DNA of 21,386 nucleotides from Polymyxa betae (Eukaryota > Endomyxa > Phytomyxea > Plasmodiophorida > Plasmodiophoridae): NCBI GenBank assembly GCA_003693705.1, contig RBZT01000841.1, forward strand, positions 1-21,386, written 5' to 3'. Under the pieces are notes generated by a model. It saw only the letters and a list, made by a program, of their open reading frames with translations. It did not search any database and was not told the origin of the DNA. Shown piece by piece: positions 1,365 through 17,146 of the stretch; the stretch's first letter is position 1, and each line of letters opens with the position of its first letter. The position numbers and the translations under genes are program-made.

Positions 1365-1876
1365 AATCATTCGCTCATAGTCATCATTACCACCAGCAAG
1401 GCGCTGTGGAAGTACCTGATATTGGAAAATGCCTTTCCCAAAAGCGGAGGCATTAGATTTCTGACGATCCGAAGCGAGTTTCAGGTTCCAGTAACCATTC
1501 TCGAACAGTCGGGACCTTGACTTTTTGGCACTGGAGTGTGCTTATTGACTGCTCGAAAATCGTGAACGAGACGTTTCTCATTAGTGCCTTTCATATGAAC
1601 GAGAAAAGTAGGGCTCAAGTCTTGATCTTTTAATTCAACCTCCTTAATAAAACCTTGTCTTATCATGTCTTGAATAATAATCAGCAGAATCTTATCTTGC
1701 GATTTCAACGACTGCCTTAAGGGGCGATGGGGATTTATGGTAAAACCAACTCCCTCGTTGCTTGGAAACCTTTTAACGTCACGATCCAAAATTGGACGGG
1801 AAGAAGAGGAAGCTATTAGTTTTTTGATTCCTCCTTTTGCACCACACTTTTCGCCGCCCGCAAGGCCTTTTTCCAT
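1365..1876 (-). mobile_element. Reverse-transcriptase fragment of an LTR retrotransposon, frameshifted
   Basis: The minus-strand frame 1876-1481 carries the N-terminal part of a retroelement reverse transcriptase. It has the helix DMIRQGFIKEVELKDQDLSP, then a TFLVHMK strand, then RLVHDFRAVNKHT. This corresponds to the family pattern 'G.I..S..SP....V.KK.G..R...DYR.LN..T'. Homology continues in another frame at 1487-1365, where ASAFGKGIFQYQVLPQRL matches the 'TAF....G.Y.....PFGL' block. So at least one frameshift separates the two pieces, and the short stretch between them seems to need another. The catalytic YxDD block is not seen. The arrangement resembles Ty3/Gypsy-type elements, but the subfamily is not certain. 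It is a dead copy. Confidence 0.6.
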
Positions 1877-2375
1877 GGACGGGGAGCGGGGTTCGGGCGC
1901 GACGAGGATATTTTCTTTAGCAGATTAAGAATTTGATCTTGTTTTGCTTCTGTATGAGCTTGATAGATTAGATCCTTGTCTAACGCGAGAATGCGTTCTT
2001 CCTCAGTCATTGATGAGAAAATAGCTTTCGCCTGAGTGAAGTTCGTCTCGAACCATAATCGGTAGAAATTAAGAGACGAAGATAGGAATCTGTTTAATTC
2101 CTCTGGTTTGGAAACCATTTCTTGACAACGATGAATAAATAAATATGACATAGGCGATCGATTGGTAGCTCCATACCCGGTTTATAGTCGTCTATTGGAA
2201 ATTCGTTGTCGAATGCTGTCCTTGTATTGGATTTCAGCAAGATCTGACGTGCATTATCAGATTGCGCCATCTTCAACGACTGAACGTCTTGCATTAATTG
2301 GTCAATCTTTCGTTCGGATCTTGTAATAGGAGCACTAGATCGTGAACGAGAAGTGCGACCCGAAGATGGGGAGGT
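1816..2375 (-). pseudogene. Gag-like ORF pieces upstream of the RT relic
   Basis: Two overlapping minus-strand frames sit immediately upstream of the reverse-transcriptase relic. The first is open from about 2375 to 2094. It begins with a Ser/Arg-rich stretch, then a predicted helix around KIDQLMQDVQSLKMAQ. The second (2151-1816) is charged and helical and ends in a basic Arg/Pro/Lys-rich tail that overlaps the RT frame in a different register. A basic, helical protein just before pol is what a Gag or Gag-Pol linker would look like. I see no zinc knuckle or capsid signature here, so Gag is an inference from position and composition. Confidence 0.35.
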
Positions 2376-6116: not shown

Positions 6117-6218
6117 AATGCTGATAAAAAAATGTTGGAAGTTTGTATCATCTGTTGCTGTATAGACTCAACAGCGCAGATTTCTAGTACTTCCGTAGAT
6201 CCCCAATGAAAAAAGTAT
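6117..6218 (-). repeat. 3' flank of tRNA-Leu copy 1, shared with copy 3
   Basis: Read on the minus strand, the DNA following this tRNA closely matches the DNA following the third tRNA copy (10076-10176). Shared blocks include ACGGAAGTACTAGAA, CTGCGCTGTT and the 19-mer CAGATGATACAAACTTCCA. There are scattered substitutions and small length differences. This shows the tRNA moved or was copied together with at least about 80 bases of its downstream flank. The second copy (8129) shares only the first few bases after the tRNA. Confidence 0.85.
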
Positions 6219-6302
6219 TGCACCAGACGGGATTCGAACCCGCGCCTTGCAAGCAAGATACGAACCTGAATCGTACGTGTTAGACCACTCCACCACCGGT
6301 GC
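6219..6302 (-). tRNA. tRNA-Leu (anticodon CAG), copy 1
   Basis: An 84-base type II tRNA with a full fold by eye. The acceptor stem is GCACCGG with CTGGTGC, and the discriminator base is A. The D stem is GTG with CAC. The anticodon stem is TACGA with TCGTA around loop TTCAGGT, giving anticodon CAG for CUG codons. A long variable arm (CTTGC with GCAAG, two-base loop) and a T arm (GCGGG with CCCGT, loop TTCGAAT) complete it. The long variable arm, A73 and anticodon CAG all indicate leucine. Internal A box (TGGTGGAGTGG) and B box (GGTTCGAATCC) are present, and a run of six T follows for RNA polymerase III termination. There is no intron and no encoded CCA. It is identical to the other two copies. 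Confidence 0.95.
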
Positions 6303-6347
6303 ATTTCCTGTATAAAACGCCAAATAATACCGCCTTTCGCGAATCAA

Positions 6348-7679: not shown

Positions 7680-7917
7680 TTAACTTTGCCTTTGGCCTTT
7701 TGCATGCTGACGAGCTCGTGCTAACAGAGCCCTTCCACATTCCGACATATTATGACCTTGGGCTCCCACAATACAGACACAATCCATCATCCACATGATG
7801 CTTAAGCTCTTCAGCCGTGAATTTGCCACGAGGGCTCCCAGATGTTGCGGTTGAATGGGGTGAACGACTCTTGGAATTAGATTTACCAATGTCCCTGGGA
7901 GTAGAGTCTGTTGAAGC
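7680..7917 (-). mobile_element. Gag nucleocapsid fragment with CCHC zinc knuckle, frameshifted
   Basis: The minus strand reads a Ser/Arg-rich linker, then KFTAEELKHHVDDGLCLYCG. This is the hallmark lead-in to the zinc knuckle of Ty3/Gypsy Gag proteins ('LT.EE...R...GLCLYCG'). The first two cysteines are at 7768-7779. The His (7752-7754) and last Cys (7737-7739), in the context GHNMSECGR, are read one frame over. One extra base in the run between them therefore breaks a normal C-x2-C-x4-H-x4-C knuckle. The linker is internally duplicated (see 7872-8008). The capsid domain is missing: the tRNA begins only about 200 bases upstream on this element's strand. Confidence 0.75.
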
Positions 7918-8008
7918 GAAAGATCAAGGAATCAAATGCCTGGAATTAGATTACCAATGTTCCTGGGAGTGGAATCTGATGAAGCGAAAGATCAAGGAAT
8001 CAAATGCT
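7872..8008. repeat. Two-copy tandem repeat, about 69 bases per unit
   Basis: Unit 1 is 7872-7940 and unit 2 is 7941-8008. Both run from TGGAATTAGAT to GATCAAGGAATCAAATGC, with a few substitutions and one base deleted in unit 2. The repeat lies in the linker region of the Gag relic on the minus strand. The one-base loss shifts frame, so the duplication is either older than the decay or part of it. Confidence 0.85.
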
Positions 8009-8128: not shown

Positions 8129-8212
8129 GCACCGGTGGTGGAGTGGTCTAACACGTACGATTCAGGTTCGTATCTTGCTTGCAAGGCGCGGGTTCGAATC
8201 CCGTCTGGTGCA
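8129..8212 (+). tRNA. tRNA-Leu (anticodon CAG), copy 2
   Basis: All 84 bases are identical to the copies at 6219-6302 and 9992-10075, with the same type II fold, anticodon CAG, and A and B boxes. A run of five T follows six bases after the 3' end (CAATACTTTTTG), enough to stop RNA polymerase III. The upstream flank differs from the other copies apart from the short AGAAAA just before the gene, which is shared with copy 3. A Gag relic lies immediately upstream, pointing away. Confidence 0.95.
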
Positions 8213-9991: not shown

Positions 9992-10075
9992 GCACCGGTG
10001 GTGGAGTGGTCTAACACGTACGATTCAGGTTCGTATCTTGCTTGCAAGGCGCGGGTTCGAATCCCGTCTGGTGCA
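9992..10075 (+). tRNA. tRNA-Leu (anticodon CAG), copy 3
   Basis: The same 84-base type II tRNA as the other two copies, with no substitutions. It is followed by CAATATTTTTTTT, a strong RNA polymerase III stop signal. Its 3' flank (10076 to about 10176) is a diverged copy of the flank of copy 1, in the same orientation relative to the tRNA, so copies 1 and 3 arose from one larger duplication that was inverted or transposed. A TATATAG motif lies about 40 bases upstream. Confidence 0.95.
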
Positions 10076-10447: not shown

Positions 10448-12356
10448 ATGCCGTCCGCAACGATCACGATCTGGGCCGGGCTGGCCCTGGCCGTACTGGC
10501 CCAGCTCGACCAGACGGTCCCGCCCCCAGCTTTTACCCCGGTACCCGACCAGACCGTGACACCACCCGTGTTGAATCAGACTAATGTTACATTGCCGACA
10601 ACGAATCAGACTGCCGCCCCGATTGTGCCCGGGCCAGCACCACCGACTAATGTTACATTGCCGACAACGAATCAGACTGCCGCCCCGGTTGTGCCCGGGC
10701 CAGCACCGCCCACTAATGTTACATTGCCGACAACGAATCAGACTGCCGCCCCGGTTGTGCCCGGGCCAGTACCGCCCACTAATGTTACATTGCCGACAAC
10801 GAATCAGACGGCCGCCCCGGTTGTGCCCGGGCCAGTACCACCCACTAATGTTACAGCTGCCCCGATTGTGCCCGGGCCAGTACCACTGCCGCTGACCAAC
10901 CGTACGACGGCGCCACCGATCCCCGTTACAAGCCCAGTGGTGCCAGTGCAGAACGTCTCCGGTAACGTGACAGCTGTACAGCCACGACCGAATGTGACGG
11001 CGATCCCGATCCGAGGTGCCCCACGGAAAGAGTCGACAGCAGCCCCTGCGACGGTGATGCCGACCCCTGTCAGTGTAAGCGGTGGTATCATATCCCCATC
11101 CGTGGCCCGGCAACAGACTACACCACCAGGACGAACTTCTCCTGGACTTAACGCTAACGATGTTGTTATCATATCGGGATGGAATGGAACTATTATTGAT
11201 GGTGGAGAGACACTTCTCCTTAAGCTGCCTCGATCCCAGCAGCTCGATCTTCGCGTTCAGGTCGGGTCTTTATGTTTCAACTGTTACGCTGTTGCTCAGT
11301 TACAGTAACGTTTGCACCGTCGCTTGACATATTGGGTTCTCAATCTTTGATGTAACAATTGTATTTAACTCTATGTTCAGAACATTTTCGTCCCGGGTGC
11401 CGGAAGTACTGCCACGTTCCGCCCATTAGCAGATGGTAACGTGAACTTCATGTCCGAGTTGCTGTTACTGGACGATGAGATCCAGCTGGTGTTACGTTAC
11501 GCTCTATCAGCAGGTCTTGAGGCCACTGCACTACATTCGCACTTCCTGTTCGATCAGCCAAAAGCGTATTTCTTGCATCTGCATGCTGGCGGCATCGCCC
11601 CGGCGAAGGCCGCCTCCGCCCTACGTAACGTTACCAACGCGATACTCGGTGTCCGAGCAAACCCGCCGCCGCCGTCTGCGCCACCAATCGAGACGCGTAT
11701 CAGTTCGTTGACGTTACAGCCGATCCAAGCGGCGTTAGCGCCGTCCGGACTAGCGGCTACTAAACAGGACGATGGGACTGTATTGATGACTGCACCACCT
11801 CTCACATGCACTGTTATGGGCTATGTATGTTACATTATGGGGTTTTCAAACACCTGGTTCGGGTTTTAAGGTTTAGGGTTTGCTGCCCCCAATGCCGAAT
11901 CGAATTCCATTTTCGTTTGCGATGATCTTTGTGGATTTTTTTATGTTTCAGACTGCATTCCGTCATTATGTTTATGTTTCACTTGGCTGTGGAATGTAAC
12001 GTTTGTTAACCATGCTCTGACAGAACACGTCCTTCACAACCGGATGTCAGTCACTGTTAACATTTGCTGGATCCGACGGAGACGCGATCGTGTACGGGCA
12101 GTTCTGTTCCAACGAGTTCAACATGCAGAGGTAACGTTTCCGCGAACGTAACGTAGATCCCGGTACTGATACGTTACCTGCACTCAGAGTCCTGATCAAC
12201 AACTTGGTGCAGAATCTGACTGTGACGGCGATCGTCAACCATTTCGTCGGTGAGAACCCGGAGATCCTGTTCGTTCATTTCTGGGGACGTGGGCCAGCAC
12301 AGGACCTGGCCAGCAAACTGGCGCTGGTCGCCACGGACGCGTCCCGCACGCGGTAA
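10448..12356 (+). CDS. Secreted repeat glycoprotein with duplicated DUF1259 (LppY/LpqO-type) domain
   Basis: Four exons by eye: 10448-11260, 11381-11824, 12024-12130 and 12188-12356, giving about 510 residues. Introns start GTCGGG, GTATGT and GTAACG and end CAG. The ATG at 10448 is the first in frame and gives a signal peptide (residues 1-19, WAGLALAVLAQ). Residues 45-147 are a Pro/Thr-rich array of 22-residue repeats, each with two N-glycosylation sequons (NVT and NQT). From about 235 two half-domains match DUF1259. The first has a DDEI helix and the ATALHSHF...YFLHLH block (His 323 and 325). The second has LTVTAIVNHF...ILFVHFWGRG, where the first His of the usual H-N-H is Val. The biochemical role of DUF1259 is not established. 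An extracellular or cell-surface protein is inferred. The exon 2 end is the least certain boundary; 11812 is an alternative. Confidence 0.75.
10580..10888 (+). repeat. Coding minisatellite, 66-base unit, four full copies plus a part
   Basis: Units start at 10580, 10646, 10712 and 10778, exactly 66 bases apart. A fifth at 10844 lacks about 21 bases in its middle. Each unit begins ACTAATGTTACATTGCCGAC and encodes T-N-V-T-L-P-T-T-N-Q-T-A-A-P-[IV]-V-P-G-P-[AV]-P-P. Units differ at only a few bases, so the array is young or kept uniform. Copy number may vary between individuals. Confidence 0.95.
11261..11380 (+). other. Intron 1 of the DUF1259 gene
   Basis: It starts GTCGGG after CGCGTTCAG and ends CTATGTTCAG, phase 0. 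Removing it joins the strand region LLKLPRSQQLDLRVQ to NIFVPGAGSTATF, which is the continuous order expected for DUF1259. Reading through instead gives a stop at 11306-11308. Confidence 0.75.
11825..12023 (+). other. Intron 2 of the DUF1259 gene
   Basis: It starts with the strong donor GTATGT and ends CTCTGACAG, phase 0, 199 bases. It contains a telomere-type GGTTTAGGGTTT motif near 11871-11882. An alternative donor at 11813 would remove four more codons. Confidence 0.6.
12131..12187 (+). other. Intron 3 of the DUF1259 gene
   Basis: It starts GTAACG after ATGCAGAG and ends CACTCAG, phase 2, 57 bases. Splicing restores the frame into VLINNLVQNLTVTAIVNHF. The neighbouring acceptor two bases on would break the frame. 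Confidence 0.7.
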
Positions 12357-12408: not shown

Positions 12409-12414
12409 AATAAA
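12409..12414 (+). terminator. Candidate polyadenylation signal of the DUF1259 gene
   Basis: AATAAA lies 53 bases after the stop codon, a normal distance for a canonical signal. Confidence 0.55.
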
Positions 12415-12867: not shown

Positions 12868-13926
12868 ATGAGGCGGTCGACCTCGCGCACGACGGACTCC
12901 GTCGACGAAATCATCGACTACACCTACGGAGGGAACGGTACGACGTCGACGACGGTGGCAGCCGCCGCATCGCCCCGGCGTCGGACTTGGTGCCCAACGC
13001 CGCAGCTGCTTGTGGCCGTCGCCACGTTTCTGTTCGGCGCCTTCATCAACAGCTTGGCGCAGGCCGTCCTACAACGCCAGCAGAACCCTGTTAAGCAAAC
13101 GTTACCGGACCTGGGTTTTGATACGTTACATTTCGTGCCAGAAGATTCGTTTTACGCAGATCTCACCTTGTTTCTGATCGACGGTGCCGCTTTCTTACGT
13201 TTCATGGCCGACCCGCTGTTACGTTGCGTGTTCCTGAGGCGGCGTCTGTTCGTCCATGGGGTTGTATTCCTGCTGCGGTCCGTGGCGATTTCCGTCACGC
13301 CGCTCCCGAATCCGTACCCGCATTGCAAGGCGCCACCGGTCAGCTACGGACCAGGCGTCACTGCCGTCCTCATCATGCTGGGCATGGTGAAGACATGTAA
13401 CGACGTCATGTTCAGCGGTCATGCTGCCTCTATGACGTTATCAGCGCTGTTCATGCTTTGGCACGGCGACTTCACGCGATTCCACGGCAAAATCAGTACG
13501 ACTGAGATTCGCCTTCACGTTTCGTTTTGTTCGTTGCCCTGCGGAATTATCACTTCACGGGTTTCTCTTACAGAATTAGTTCAATTTTAGATCGTTTCTT
13601 CGATGAAAATTGTTAAGTTTGATTCAGGTTATTCGTTCCTGCGGATATTGTCGATAGTGATGAAGGCGATAGTGATGGTTGGATGGATCATGGGCCTATT
13701 AACTCTAATCGCTACCAGATTTCATTACAGTCTGGACGTATTTATCGGTACCCTGATCGCTACATTGACCTTTCTACTACTCTATTCGCTGATCGCATTG
13801 GTTCGCCTATTCGACGATGATTTCGAAGAATATCCACCGGAGATGTGCGGCCCTATAATCTCATTCGTCGCGTGGTTTGAACACCACGAGACGAAATCCG
13901 CCGATCCAATCGGCCACCAGTTATGA
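12868..13926 (+). CDS. Sphingomyelin-synthase-like (PAP2_3) membrane enzyme
   Basis: Two exons, 12868-13495 and 13628-13926, joined in phase 1, giving about 308 residues. The N-terminus is cytosolic-looking and Ser/Thr/Arg-rich. It is followed by roughly six membrane segments: about 47-67, 97-117, 127-146, 163-178, 222-239 and 247-268. Three family signatures are visible. RRRLFVHGVVFLLRSVAISV followed by TPLPNP resembles the D1/D2 region. CNDVMFSGHAASMTL is the 'CGD..FSGHT' motif with His 185. RFHYSLDV is the 'HYT.DV' motif with His 242 and Asp 246. These form the His-His-Asp triad that moves a phospho-head group onto ceramide in sphingomyelin, ceramide-phosphoethanolamine or inositol-phosphoceramide synthases. 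G to N in CGD and T to A after SGH are departures from the consensus. The head group cannot be told from sequence alone. It probably sits in Golgi or plasma membrane. Confidence 0.85.
13496..13627 (+). other. Intron of the PAP2_3 gene
   Basis: It starts GTACGA and ends TTTGATTCAG, 132 bases, phase 1 (an A before it and GT after make a Ser codon). It separates the FSGH and HYSLDV halves of the catalytic triad. Without splicing the first exon reads to a stop at 13588-13590 and the triad is incomplete. Confidence 0.75.
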
Positions 13927-14353
13927 ATCCATGGGCGGAGATATATGCTGCTCATCATGTAATGTTACAAACCCTATGCCGGAATGCTCGGTATCGGATG
14001 CTAATTGCATTTAATATCACAATCGACTTGGTTCAAGTTAATGCAATCAAATCAAACTTTCAATTCAATTCTCTTTGTAAATATTGTAGCTGGATATTAA
14101 GATGATCTTGTGAAAGTGAAGTGACTGACTCTGCAGTATCAGAAAGTCGTGTGTTTTGTTTAGGGTTCCAATCATAGCAAATTTTCGTCTATCTGCAGAT
14201 AGTCTTAAGAGATTGCTGCCTTGACGGAGCCCACAGCGTCGTCTTTAATACGCCGTATCAGAAAAATCTATCATCGATATCAGCACGATACACAGAGCTA
14301 ATATTTCCTGCAATTTTAGAGTCGAATCGATTCGAGGGTGCACAGCATCGAGA
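13927..14353. other. Intergenic region after the PAP2_3 gene
   Basis: No gene is seen. It is AT-rich near 14030-14100, and a TTTAGGGTT motif lies near 14160. No canonical AATAAA is found close to the stop. Confidence 0.45.
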
Positions 14354-15062
14354 TCGCTGATGGTTGCTATGAGCACCGTAATGCTCCATAGAATCGTGAA
14401 CGTGAAGCTGTCGTTCAAGCTCGTACCTTGGCACGTATCCAATCATGGTGACAGTTTCATAGTGAATATTTTCGTCATCGGCCCCATCCCCTTCGTCTCA
14501 TTGTCCCTGCCCAACGGCCAGCTGGTCTCATTCCGCGCCTTTCTGACACTGATGGTGCTGGACGCCCTGGTCGTATCGTTGTAAGCATCAACCTGGCTCA
14601 AAGCCGAGCTACAACAATGTCATTTTGATCGCATGAAGGGGTTTGGTTTATGTTACAGCCTCAGGATAAATTAGCAGTGGGCGCAGCCACAGGATTTATC
14701 AAAGCAGTGGGCGCAGCCACCAGTCTTACAAAAGTCAAGGCGGAACCCCCGAACCTCTTCACATTGCTTCTCTTCATCATTCTGCCTCATATCATTTCAA
14801 AACATTTTAATGTTCGGAACACTGGCTCGCTGATCATGATGCTGACTATCAGCGGCAAGAAGATGAGTGATAGTGAGGAGCAGCATCGGATCCGCACGCA
14901 GTTTGGTTGAGAGGCGTTCGGCGCGTTGGGGATACAATGTTTTTGTAAGTATTGTTTGTAATATGGCAGCCCATGTACCGGCCTAGGCTCTGCTGATATT
15001 CTTTTTGCAATCGCTGGGCCTATCACTGTTTGCCATCCATACAATGGTGGAGTTAAAGCCGA
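14354..15062 (+). pseudogene. Decayed relative of the PA/7TM gene at 15809
   Basis: Three pieces line up in order with the gene at 15809-17146. At 14360-14584 is the region around NAVFFHRIIN to LMMLDALV; here it reads MLHRIVN and LTLMVLDALV. At 14691-14910 is FIIAVGAAASL to ISDEQRRIRMSF; here FIKAVGAATSL, RNTGSL and SEEQHRIRTQFG. At 14985-15062 is the last membrane helices to VMALKP; here TMVELKP. A TGA at 14908-14910 stands where the intact gene has a Trp codon. A TAA at 14582-14584 and missing bases break the frame further, and 30 bases are tandemly duplicated at 14663-14720. The signal peptide and PA-like region are not found. A GTAAGT near 14946 suggests a former intron. Confidence 0.8.
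14663..14720 (+). repeat. 30-base tandem duplication within the pseudogene
   Basis: AGCAGTGGGCGCAGCCAC occurs at 14673-14690 and again at 14703-14720. It is preceded each time by an AGGAT-like stretch. The intact gene has one copy, so the duplication happened in the pseudogene. Confidence 0.9.
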
Positions 15063-15808
15063 TGCCCAGAGCGCACTGCTCTCCAGAAAAGAAATCTCGT
15101 CGATGATGTCGTCACACTTTGTAGGACGTCGTGCCGATCGACCAGGAACATTCAATCATCCCGAATACAACTTCCAACATCACTCACTAGACGCTAACCG
15201 CCAGTCTTGATTGTGAGCTAATATCTGTATGGCTCTCAACGTTTGGCGTAGTTCGCCGATCCCGAATTGGGGATGTCCAGGAAGATTGGTATTGCTGCTG
15301 TCGTCGCAATCTCCCTCGATTTCTTTATTGAAGAGCAAACGTTAAAAACCGATGTTCGCATCACTATTCAGTCATAGTTTCCACATGATGGCAGTCCATT
15401 CAAGTGCAATAAGACAGCCGCAATGAAAGGCGACGATGATCCATCAAGATTTGCATCTTCTCAGAAAATTCCTTGAATATTAGAATGGCTTGTATGGGTA
15501 TATTGCAATTCGTCCAGCCTCTATGGTTTCGTGTCTCGTCAATGAAAAGTTTTCTGGTTGTAATATAACACAGGTAGAAATGCTGGAAGGCCAAATTTCT
15601 GTTAACGACAGATTACTATTACTTATTGAATCGTTTGATTTACAGTCTTCTCAAAACAATTACATTCACCATTGTCGAACGTGTTTATCCACGAATATCT
15701 GTAGACAGATCGAAGTTTCTTACGATCCCCAAGATATTTACGATGCTCGAGAAGTTTGTTAACTTGTTCACCATGGCAAAATTTTAAGCATTCAAGTTAC
15801 TGTGTGCT
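15063..15808. other. Region between the pseudogene and the PA/7TM gene
   Basis: No gene is assigned. Around 15590-15780 two plus-strand frames are open at once, one of them ending 15777-15779 with a hydrophobic reading containing LIYSLLKTITFTIVERVYP. Neither is recognised. The last few hundred bases are likely to hold the promoter of the gene at 15809, though no TATA box stands out. Confidence 0.4.
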
Positions 15809-17146
15809 ATGATGAGATTATTCCTTCTCAGCGCTCTCTTCCTAACGTCATTCTGGAAAGCCGCTTCATTAGAAGTCATCGACTCCAATCATATAACGTA
15901 TGATATCCCGTCATTCGAGTTCGGCTCGCAATCAAAGGTGAGTTTCCGATCAACTGTCGCTCGAGAGCGATTCCTTCCAAATGTGACCTCGTTAGTGCAT
16001 GTAACTGCTTTAATGTTTCCCATTCAAGAATATGTCGATCGATGCCAAGCTGCCGGTTGCCGAGGGCTTATCTTGTACACCGACTCCGATCTCCAGGCGG
16101 TCTTAGAGATCGCCGCCTGGACAGAACCTGTCGAATCCGCTTCGATTCCAGTTGTCGCTCTTGGACGAACTGATGTTGATCTCAGCAAAATTACAGAGAC
16201 GCGATTCTTGACTGATTCCGCTGCAAACCGGTTCGGAGAGGCGAATCAATCTAGAGCTCTCATCATGCTCATGAATGCCGTGTTTTTCCACCGTATTATC
16301 AATACCTTCTACTGCATCTACAAATTGGTCGAATTCATCAAGTCCCGCAGCAAAATTGTTTATCCCATCTTGGTCATCATCTCGTATGTGATCTCCGGCG
16401 TTATCGGAATCGTTGCCTTCGAATCGCTTTCGCTGCACGGCGCCACTCTGCTATCATTTCGGGGCATGATGTTTCTGATGATGCTGGACGCCCTGGTCCT
16501 TTACTGCGGTCGTATTGCCATGGGCATGAACTTGGCTGCGAGCCGAACGAAAACGATGTCAAGCAAGACCTATTCGTTTGATGCCATTAAAGATCACATT
16601 ACAGCGTTAGGGTTTATTATAGCAGTGGGCGCGGCCGCCTCCCTTTGTACAGTCAAGGTGCTACCCTCTGGCTTCTTTACGTTGCTTCTATTCGTCATCA
16701 CTCTTCCTCACATCATCTTCATTGCTTTCAACGCTCGCAACACCGGCTCGCTGGTCAATCTACTAATTTCAAATGGACGGACGCTGAGCATCAGCGATGA
16801 ACAGAGGCGTATCAGAATGTCGTTCGCCTGGAAGGCATTCGGGGCTACCGTCGCCGGACTTGTAACCGTTTTATTGCAGGTGCTCTTTATATTCCTTCAG
16901 TCTTGGGGGCCATTTGAGTTTGTATTACTATATTCGCTGCAAGCGTTTAGCATATCGCAGGTCGCAATCTACACCGTGATGGCGTTGAAGCCTGCAGTTA
17001 AAAGCTCAACAGCTCCTGGCAAGCAATCCTCGCAACCTCACACGAAACAAGAAACAGCAGCGCGACGTGTTAATTCAACTACAACAAATACTGTTGGCAC
17101 CGCACAGACTGCCAGTTCGAAGCATTCAGTGATTCCAAACACTTAA
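15809..17146 (+). CDS. Membrane protein with signal peptide, PA-like ectodomain and about seven TM helices
   Basis: One uninterrupted frame of 445 codons from ATG 15809 (a second ATG follows at once). Residues 1-20 are a signal peptide (LFLLSALFLTSFWKAAS). Residues 65-125 have the pattern of a protease-associated (PA) domain: VDRCQAAGCRGLILYTDSD, then IPVVALGRTD. Sequons NVT and NQS lie on this side. Membrane segments follow at about 150-172, 184-205, 218-240, 262-284, 287-307, 340-363 and 369-393. The tail (394-445) is polar, Ser/Thr/Gln-rich and probably cytosolic. There are no peptidase, E3 RING or kinase residues. A receptor-like or sorting role is possible but unproven. It has no intron, unlike the two genes upstream. 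A broken relative lies about 750 bases upstream. Confidence 0.75.
   Translation: MMRLFLLSALFLTSFWKAASLEVIDSNHITYDIPSFEFGSQSKVSFRSTVARERFLPNVTSLVHVTALMFPIQEYVDRCQAAGCRGLILYTDSDLQAVLEIAAWTEPVESASIPVVALGRTDVDLSKITETRFLTDSAANRFGEANQSRALIMLMNAVFFHRIINTFYCIYKLVEFIKSRSKIVYPILVIISYVISGVIGIVAFESLSLHGATLLSFRGMMFLMMLDALVLYCGRIAMGMNLAASRTKTMSSKTYSFDAIKDHITALGFIIAVGAAASLCTVKVLPSGFFTLLLFVITLPHIIFIAFNARNTGSLVNLLISNGRTLSISDEQRRIRMSFAWKAFGATVAGLVTVLLQVLFIFLQSWGPFEFVLLYSLQAFSISQVAIYTVMALKPAVKSSTAPGKQSSQPHTKQETAARRVNSTTTNTVGTAQTASSKHSVIPNT

Follow-up and report, generated by a model that had tools for sequence, protein, structure and literature searches.

We found, in the window (the whole 21,386-base stretch of DNA that was analyzed, which is an entire contig of a 24.4-Mb assembly of 541 contigs), a gene of open, profile-supported structure whose product belongs to the DUF1259 family, carries two tandem lobes and has lost a conserved residue in the second of them. 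The explanation that we favor, and regard as probable, is that this is a single-locus eukaryotic gene for a secreted glycoprotein whose two-lobe DUF1259 body is of bacterial origin and acts as a binder in metal or oxyanion (chromate-type) stress. In this scheme, the two-lobe body behind its proline-rich linker would have come from a bacterium long ago; after the transfer, introns would have been gained inside the lobes, the lipobox would have been lost and sequon repeats would have been gained. The product would be a secreted protein with a repeat-rich, N-glycosylated stalk in front of the two-lobe body. The H-x-H motif and the later histidine of each lobe would form a ligand or metal site, with three of these histidines kept in lobe 1 and two in lobe 2, and the protein would serve as an extracytoplasmic binder in metal or oxyanion (chromate-type) stress like ChrL, mainly by means of lobe 1.

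Structure of the DUF1259 gene

The gene model consists of the following features.

10448-12356 (+): whole DUF1259 gene, ATG at 10448, TAA at 12354-12356, 510 residues when spliced
10448..11260 (+): exon 1, opens with a segment resembling a signal peptide (about residues 1-18), then stalk and start of lobe 1; reading frame open, GT donor at 11261
11261..11380 (+): intron 1, 120 bases, phase 0, with in-frame stops
11381..11824 (+): exon 2, bulk of lobe 1, then linker and start of lobe 2
11825..12023 (+): intron 2, 199 bases, phase 0, frame-shifting and with a stop inside
12024..12130 (+): exon 3, middle of lobe 2
12131..12187 (+): intron 3, 57 bases, phase 2, with an in-frame stop
12188..12356 (+): exon 4, remainder of lobe 2, then the stop codon; PF07485 match at 12210-12323
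12409..12414 (+): AATAAA, resembling a poly(A) signal, 53 bases 3' of the stop

The coordinates given in the initial annotation, 10448..12356, proved correct at both the start and the stop codon. Its four-exon structure also stands in outline: all three introns run from GT to AG, retention of any one of them breaks the frame, and the profile supports the model. The exact exon borders, in contrast, are predicted rather than proven, because alternative donor and acceptor choices also leave the frame open and intron 1 has a donor (GTCGGG) that looks weak by eye. Exons 2, 3 and 4 each encode a part of lobe 2, and exon 4 alone scores 38.2 bits against PF07485; thus, the profile favors introns 2 and 3. 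Splicing of the predicted exons raises the PF07485 score, and all three chosen junctions are gap-free when the spliced protein is aligned to bacterial two-lobe relatives. The two lobes pair with those of ordinary bacterial LppY/LpqO proteins in the same order. G+C is 0.51-0.60 in the exons and 0.39, 0.40 and 0.51 in the introns. We expect that the transcript would be spliced along these lines.

The DUF1259 body and its two lobes

The presence of a DUF1259 domain had been proposed from the unaided sequence, with a profile search of the spliced protein as the suggested check. Against PF07485, the spliced protein scored 115.7 bits (E 1.4e-33) in two stretches, where the Pfam gathering cut-off for this family is 25 bits. 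In the Pfam copy used, PF07485 is labelled DUF1529 and its description is DUF1259.

11243..11638 (+): DUF1259 lobe 1, residues 266-357, cut by intron 1; 64.9 bits, profile 27-120 of 121
11795..12323 (+): DUF1259 lobe 2, residues 410-500, introns 2 and 3 fall inside it; 57.7 bits over profile positions 25-116 of 121

The two copies had been described as half-domains. Each of them spans roughly three quarters of the profile, and when scored apart (64.9 and 57.7 bits) they are near-complete domains, so the half-domain reading was dropped. Exon 2 contains a PF07485 match of 62.6 bits at 11396-11638. Two PF07485 stretches occur in the window protein, in P0001 (the best single match, at 35% identity), in the Arthrobacter protein and in the Cupriavidus protein; no NCBIfam family was matched by the body or by P0001.

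Structures were predicted for P0001 (from eight rows; mean pLDDT 80, pTM 0.74) and for exon 2 (from 33 rows; mean pLDDT 82.7, pTM 0.62). Each lobe is predicted to be a ferredoxin-like alpha/beta unit, a reading based on how strands and helices follow one another and on middling structural matches, and in the predicted models H-x-H begins at the end of a strand. The best VIA-align matches were among ferredoxin-like, ACT-like and microcompartment-type chains, with Z under 8 (at best 7.2 for P0001 and 6.8 for exon 2). With the P0001 model as query, Foldseek returned two matches with an E of 0.001 or lower, which are chains of one large glutamate dehydrogenase with query TM-scores of 0.12-0.15; none of the rows listed exceeded 0.19. 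A comparison with solved structures by sequence gave two matches up to E 10, the best at E 1.2. On these models there is no clear relative of solved fold, which proves nothing about novelty.

Signal, stalk and predicted localization

Of the features named in the initial annotation, the signal peptide is probable and the sequon-rich repeat was borne out. The protein begins with a signal-like hydrophobic stretch (about residues 1-18, by hydropathy), and the stalk behind it (residues 19-230) contains 14 sequons compared with 2.2 +/- 1.4 in 2000 shuffles, the maximum of which was 8. Most of these sequons stem from one tandem repeat.

10580..10855 (+): tandem repeat with a 66-base unit, 4.2 copies and 97% matches; two sequons in each full unit of 22 residues

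By hydropathy, the N-terminal signal is the sole strongly hydrophobic stretch and the C-terminal tail is not hydrophobic. Surface anchoring, by GPI or by a transmembrane segment, was considered and set aside, as hydropathy offered no supporting segment. No lipobox cysteine follows the signal, and the only cysteines are at 414, 427 and 447. The protein is probably secreted free rather than anchored, and its secretion and glycosylation would follow from the signal and the sequons read in the sequence.

The stalk had also been interpreted as the outcome of a fusion to a surface stalk, a claim that is not supported. Among the 127 database rows of relatives, which were found mainly with the profile of P0001 and are not a random sample, 101 have a linker of at least 25 residues between signal and body, mostly P/A/S/T in 96 of the 101, and 90 have a lipobox-like motif. 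Since bacterial-type relatives already have a signal, a Pro/Ala-rich linker and two tandem lobes, the layout is ancestral and a fusion is unnecessary; the stalk as a novel fusion was therefore ruled out. With linkers this common among the relatives, the stalk looks like an ancestral linker that was expanded and gained sequons. As judged by comparison of the sequences, what is new in the window protein is its introns, its sequon repeats and its lack of a lipobox, and the two-lobe layout itself is already known.

Conserved histidines and divergence of the body

In each lobe of the relatives, three histidines stand at fixed columns in 127/127 database rows and in 11/11 plasmid rows. This triad is a feature of our alignment and not a published definition, and it likely forms a ligand or metal site. 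An alignment of 166 rows gives the same pattern, its locus rows having been filtered on such motifs.

11534..11542 (+): H-S-H of lobe 1, His323 and His325; the third conserved histidine, His337, lies downstream
12234..12242 (+): V-N-H of lobe 2, Val471 replaces the histidine of the relatives; His473 and His485 are kept

Lobe 1 of the window protein thus has a complete triad (3/3), and that of lobe 2 is broken, with Val471 (codon 12234-12236) in place of the first histidine. The second copy had been said to lack the first histidine of its H-x-H pair, and this loss is real, at a position that is histidine in all of these relatives (127/127 and 11/11).

The divergence extends beyond the histidines. 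Among 61 columns that are conserved in at least 93% of the 166 rows, the window protein keeps 38 and changes 23. The changed columns include, in domain numbering, Asp33, Trp49, Gly64-Asp65, Asp213, Glu220 and His239; the Asp, the Trp and the Gly-Asp pair fall in lobe 1, and the later Asp and the Glu in lobe 2. The kept columns include His473, Glu477, Pro479, His485 and Trp487 of lobe 2. The DUF1259 body is, by these alignments, recognizable yet strongly diverged, and with 23 of 61 conserved columns changed its activity may be lost or altered.

There is a second way to read the gene, in which structure and origin are as in the favored explanation and the ancestral chemistry is gone. The body would then be a globular part with a structural or adhesive role in a secreted, mucin-like protein, and selection would act on the glycosylated stalk. 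The changed columns, the broken triad of lobe 2 and the very long branch of the window protein (see below) all point that way, as does the recent look of the stalk repeat with its 97% matches. Set against this are the complete triad of lobe 1, the 38 conserved columns that are kept and a frame that is open across four exons. We regard loss of the chemistry as a possibility to be taken seriously, if clearly the lesser one, and keep the binder as the preferred reading.

Relatives and origin of the body

With residues 235-510 as the query, eight of 6995 candidate proteins matched with an E of 0.001 or lower, the best at 35% identity. A profile built from the window body and P0001 brought in 5125 of 8000 scored candidates at E 0.001. 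The named relatives (43 loci) belong mostly to Gemmatimonadota and Acidobacteriota MAGs, with one MAG labelled Methanosarcina, and plasmid-borne relatives come from Pseudomonadota, Bacteroidota, Actinomycetota and Bacillota. The proteins of the P series, P0001 included, carry no organism names and were called bacterial from their layout.

Bacterial origin is the likeliest history of the gene because the family is abundant in bacteria. The initial annotation had suggested an old acquisition from bacteria followed by intron gain. The first part remains likeliest on the strength of that abundance, with direction and age of the transfer deduced from comparison with collections that are prokaryotic. 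As to the second part, the introns lie inside both lobes, as expected if they were gained after arrival, and the gain itself would be a deduction from their position.

In a tree of 33 rows, the window protein falls on the side of Cupriavidus, Burkholderia, Alteromonas, Pseudomonas and P0001 with a support of 77/96. A topology that places it with the other 16 rows is 1.47 log units worse and is not rejected (p-AU 0.388), and one that places it with nine Gemmatimonadota/Acidobacteriota-type rows is disfavored (p-AU 0.017). Its branch is extremely long (4.72 in the 33-row tree and 7.08 in a tree of 44 rows). The tree with bacterial relatives that had been proposed as a check therefore gives a weak lean toward the ChrL side; with a branch of this length and the other side not rejected, the placement is unsettled and the donor cannot be named.

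A long branch with no close bacterial donor, together with introns inside both lobes, is also what would be expected if DUF1259 were an old eukaryotic family too, one that scattered lineages have retained without a recent donor among bacteria. The named collections compared consist of prokaryotes, their plasmids, and viruses and phages, so that named eukaryotic relatives could not appear there, and we make no claim to a first case in a eukaryote. Thousands of relatives were nevertheless obtained from genomes and metagenomes, and among the 120 candidates listed of the 5125, for which organisms are not shown, none has a name that points to a eukaryote. Exon 2 alone as a query found no relative at E 0.001 among 227 candidates, which also speaks against an old eukaryotic family. 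In the literature on DUF1259, PF07485, LppY and LpqO, no eukaryotic case stood among the titles listed, which is not proof of absence. We consider an old eukaryotic family unlikely and retain descent from a bacterial gene.

As for a giant virus or phage as carrier, 90 stretches of the viral contigs matched a search pattern and none encoded a relative, and P0001 had no match in phages; such a carrier may still have been involved.

Host genome and neighborhood

The genome has 14 actin matches, with one gene scoring up to 745 bits against PDB actins, an eEF2 gene and 11 matches to a GT2 family with chitin-synthase-like matches; a search for the chlorophyll-binding family Chloroa_b-bind found no match in the genome. 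Fungal_trans had no match either, and gave none in its controls. Set beside PDB chains, the actin and the eEF2 suggest no more than that the sequences are opisthokont- or amoebozoan-like. Three tRNA-Leu genes without an encoded CCA stand on the window contig, and neighbors of the DUF1259 gene have paralogs on other contigs of the assembly. From the actin, the eEF2, the type of the tRNA-Leu genes and the paralogs of the neighbors, the contig and the genome read as eukaryotic, and the host genome of the DUF1259 gene is eukaryotic. A profile search of the 24.4 Mb found no second copy, the PF07485 matches being confined to this one gene.

6218-6303 (-), 8129-8212 (+), 9992-10075 (+): three tRNA-Leu (CAG) genes, identical cores within 4 kb, a T-run behind each
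7872-8007: 68-base tandem repeat, two copies, 92% matches
1481-1924 (-): ORF with a stretch that we take to be reverse-transcriptase-like from a motif recognized by eye; no Pfam match
12868-13923 (+): gene of the PAP2_C family (lipid phosphatase or sphingomyelin-synthase-like), split in two by what looks by eye like an intron around 13490-13628
14273-14928 (+): broken tandem copy of the gene at 15806-17143, which encodes a membrane protein; two matching pieces, two TGA inside one

We found no supporting evidence for contamination by bacterial DNA or for a frame that is open by chance, and either is highly improbable in view of the three frame-breaking GT-AG introns, the profile score far above the cut-off, the eukaryotic-type tRNA genes on the contig and the paralogs of its neighbors.

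The G+C of the DUF1259 gene resembles that of the first exon of the adjoining PAP2 gene (0.593). The C-terminal piece of the latter scores 31.8 bits against PAP2_C and the first piece 21.5, under the cut-off of 27. The hexamers TGTAAC, TAACGT, GTAACG and AACGTT and their complements, with overlapping words counted, occur 38 times in the 1909 bases of the DUF1259 gene (10448-12356; exons and introns together, with only 5 of the 38 in the stalk repeat). The density is 19.9 per kb there, 8.5 per kb in the PAP2 gene (9 in 1056) and about 1 per kb at the contig ends. The hexamer family and the G+C shared with the PAP2 neighbor would suit a resident gene, but do not account for the extreme density. 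The membrane protein gene at 15806-17143 has a weak PA-domain match and a further paralog (31%) on contig C77.

A possible link to chromate stress

Among the 11 plasmid relatives, a sample biased towards metal resistance, eight have a chr (chromate) gene within the displayed stretch of their records, where the flanks displayed were 6000 bases for L046, 4000 for L079 and 600 for L073-L078; the other three (L072, L080 and L081) have none within 600 bases. According to two papers, deletion of chrJ, chrK and chrL in Arthrobacter FB24 lowered chromate resistance (PMC2751784; repeated in PMC7060636), chrL of this strain was 63-fold up at 5 mM chromate (PMC2751784), and chrL of CH34 is chromate-induced (PMC7060636). 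The same table that holds the chromate value gives 12.5-fold for H2O2 (PMC2751784), and the chrL response may therefore not be to chromate alone.

The genome that carries the DUF1259 gene also has matches to the ChrA family, all on a different contig.

Contig C155, 12678-14619 (-): ChrA-family (PF02417) matches, five pieces, apparently one spliced transporter gene (L070)

Since ChrA-family matches occur in 9 of 14 control genomes (DUF1259 in 1 of 14) and the two genes lie on separate contigs, their co-occurrence means little. An extracytoplasmic role in metal or oxyanion stress like that of ChrL is first among our functional guesses, and a tentative one; a chromate-type role of the window protein would be by analogy with these relatives. 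It seems distinctly unlikely that the gene encodes a domesticated bacterial extracytoplasmic chromate-stress protein, now secreted as a binder with a single site and a glycosylated stalk, that works with the genome's own ChrA-family transporter against toxic oxyanions.

Meaning and comparison with known systems

Bacteria have many DUF1259 proteins (5125 profile matches), yet the family is hardly characterized. The eukaryotic version, with one intact and one broken histidine site, offers a natural experiment that could tell which of the two lobes matters, and the gene probably illustrates how a bacterial gene takes on eukaryotic gene structure. If the link to ChrL is true, it would point to extracellular handling of metals or oxyanions in the host lineage.

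Two known systems invite comparison. With ChrL (Cupriavidus metallidurans CH34 pMOL28; Arthrobacter), the window protein shares the two-lobe family, and it stands on the Cupriavidus side of the tree with weak support (77/96; p-AU 0.388 for the other side). The two differ in that bacterial chrL genes adjoin chrA/chrB, whereas no chr match was found among the nine proteins scanned in the window, and in that the bacterial proteins are described (PMC2751784, PMC7060636) as lipoproteins or membrane-anchored, whereas the window protein has no lipobox cysteine. From the LppY/LpqO family, represented by P0001, the window protein differs in its introns, in the sequon repeats of its stalk and, again, in the missing lipobox cysteine, as well as in the replacement of the first histidine of lobe 2 by Val and of the Gly-Asp of lobe 1 by Ser-Glu. 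What it has in common with that family is the signal, the proline-rich linker and the two tandem lobes, together with H-x-H, the later histidine and the HFWGRG motif in lobe 2.
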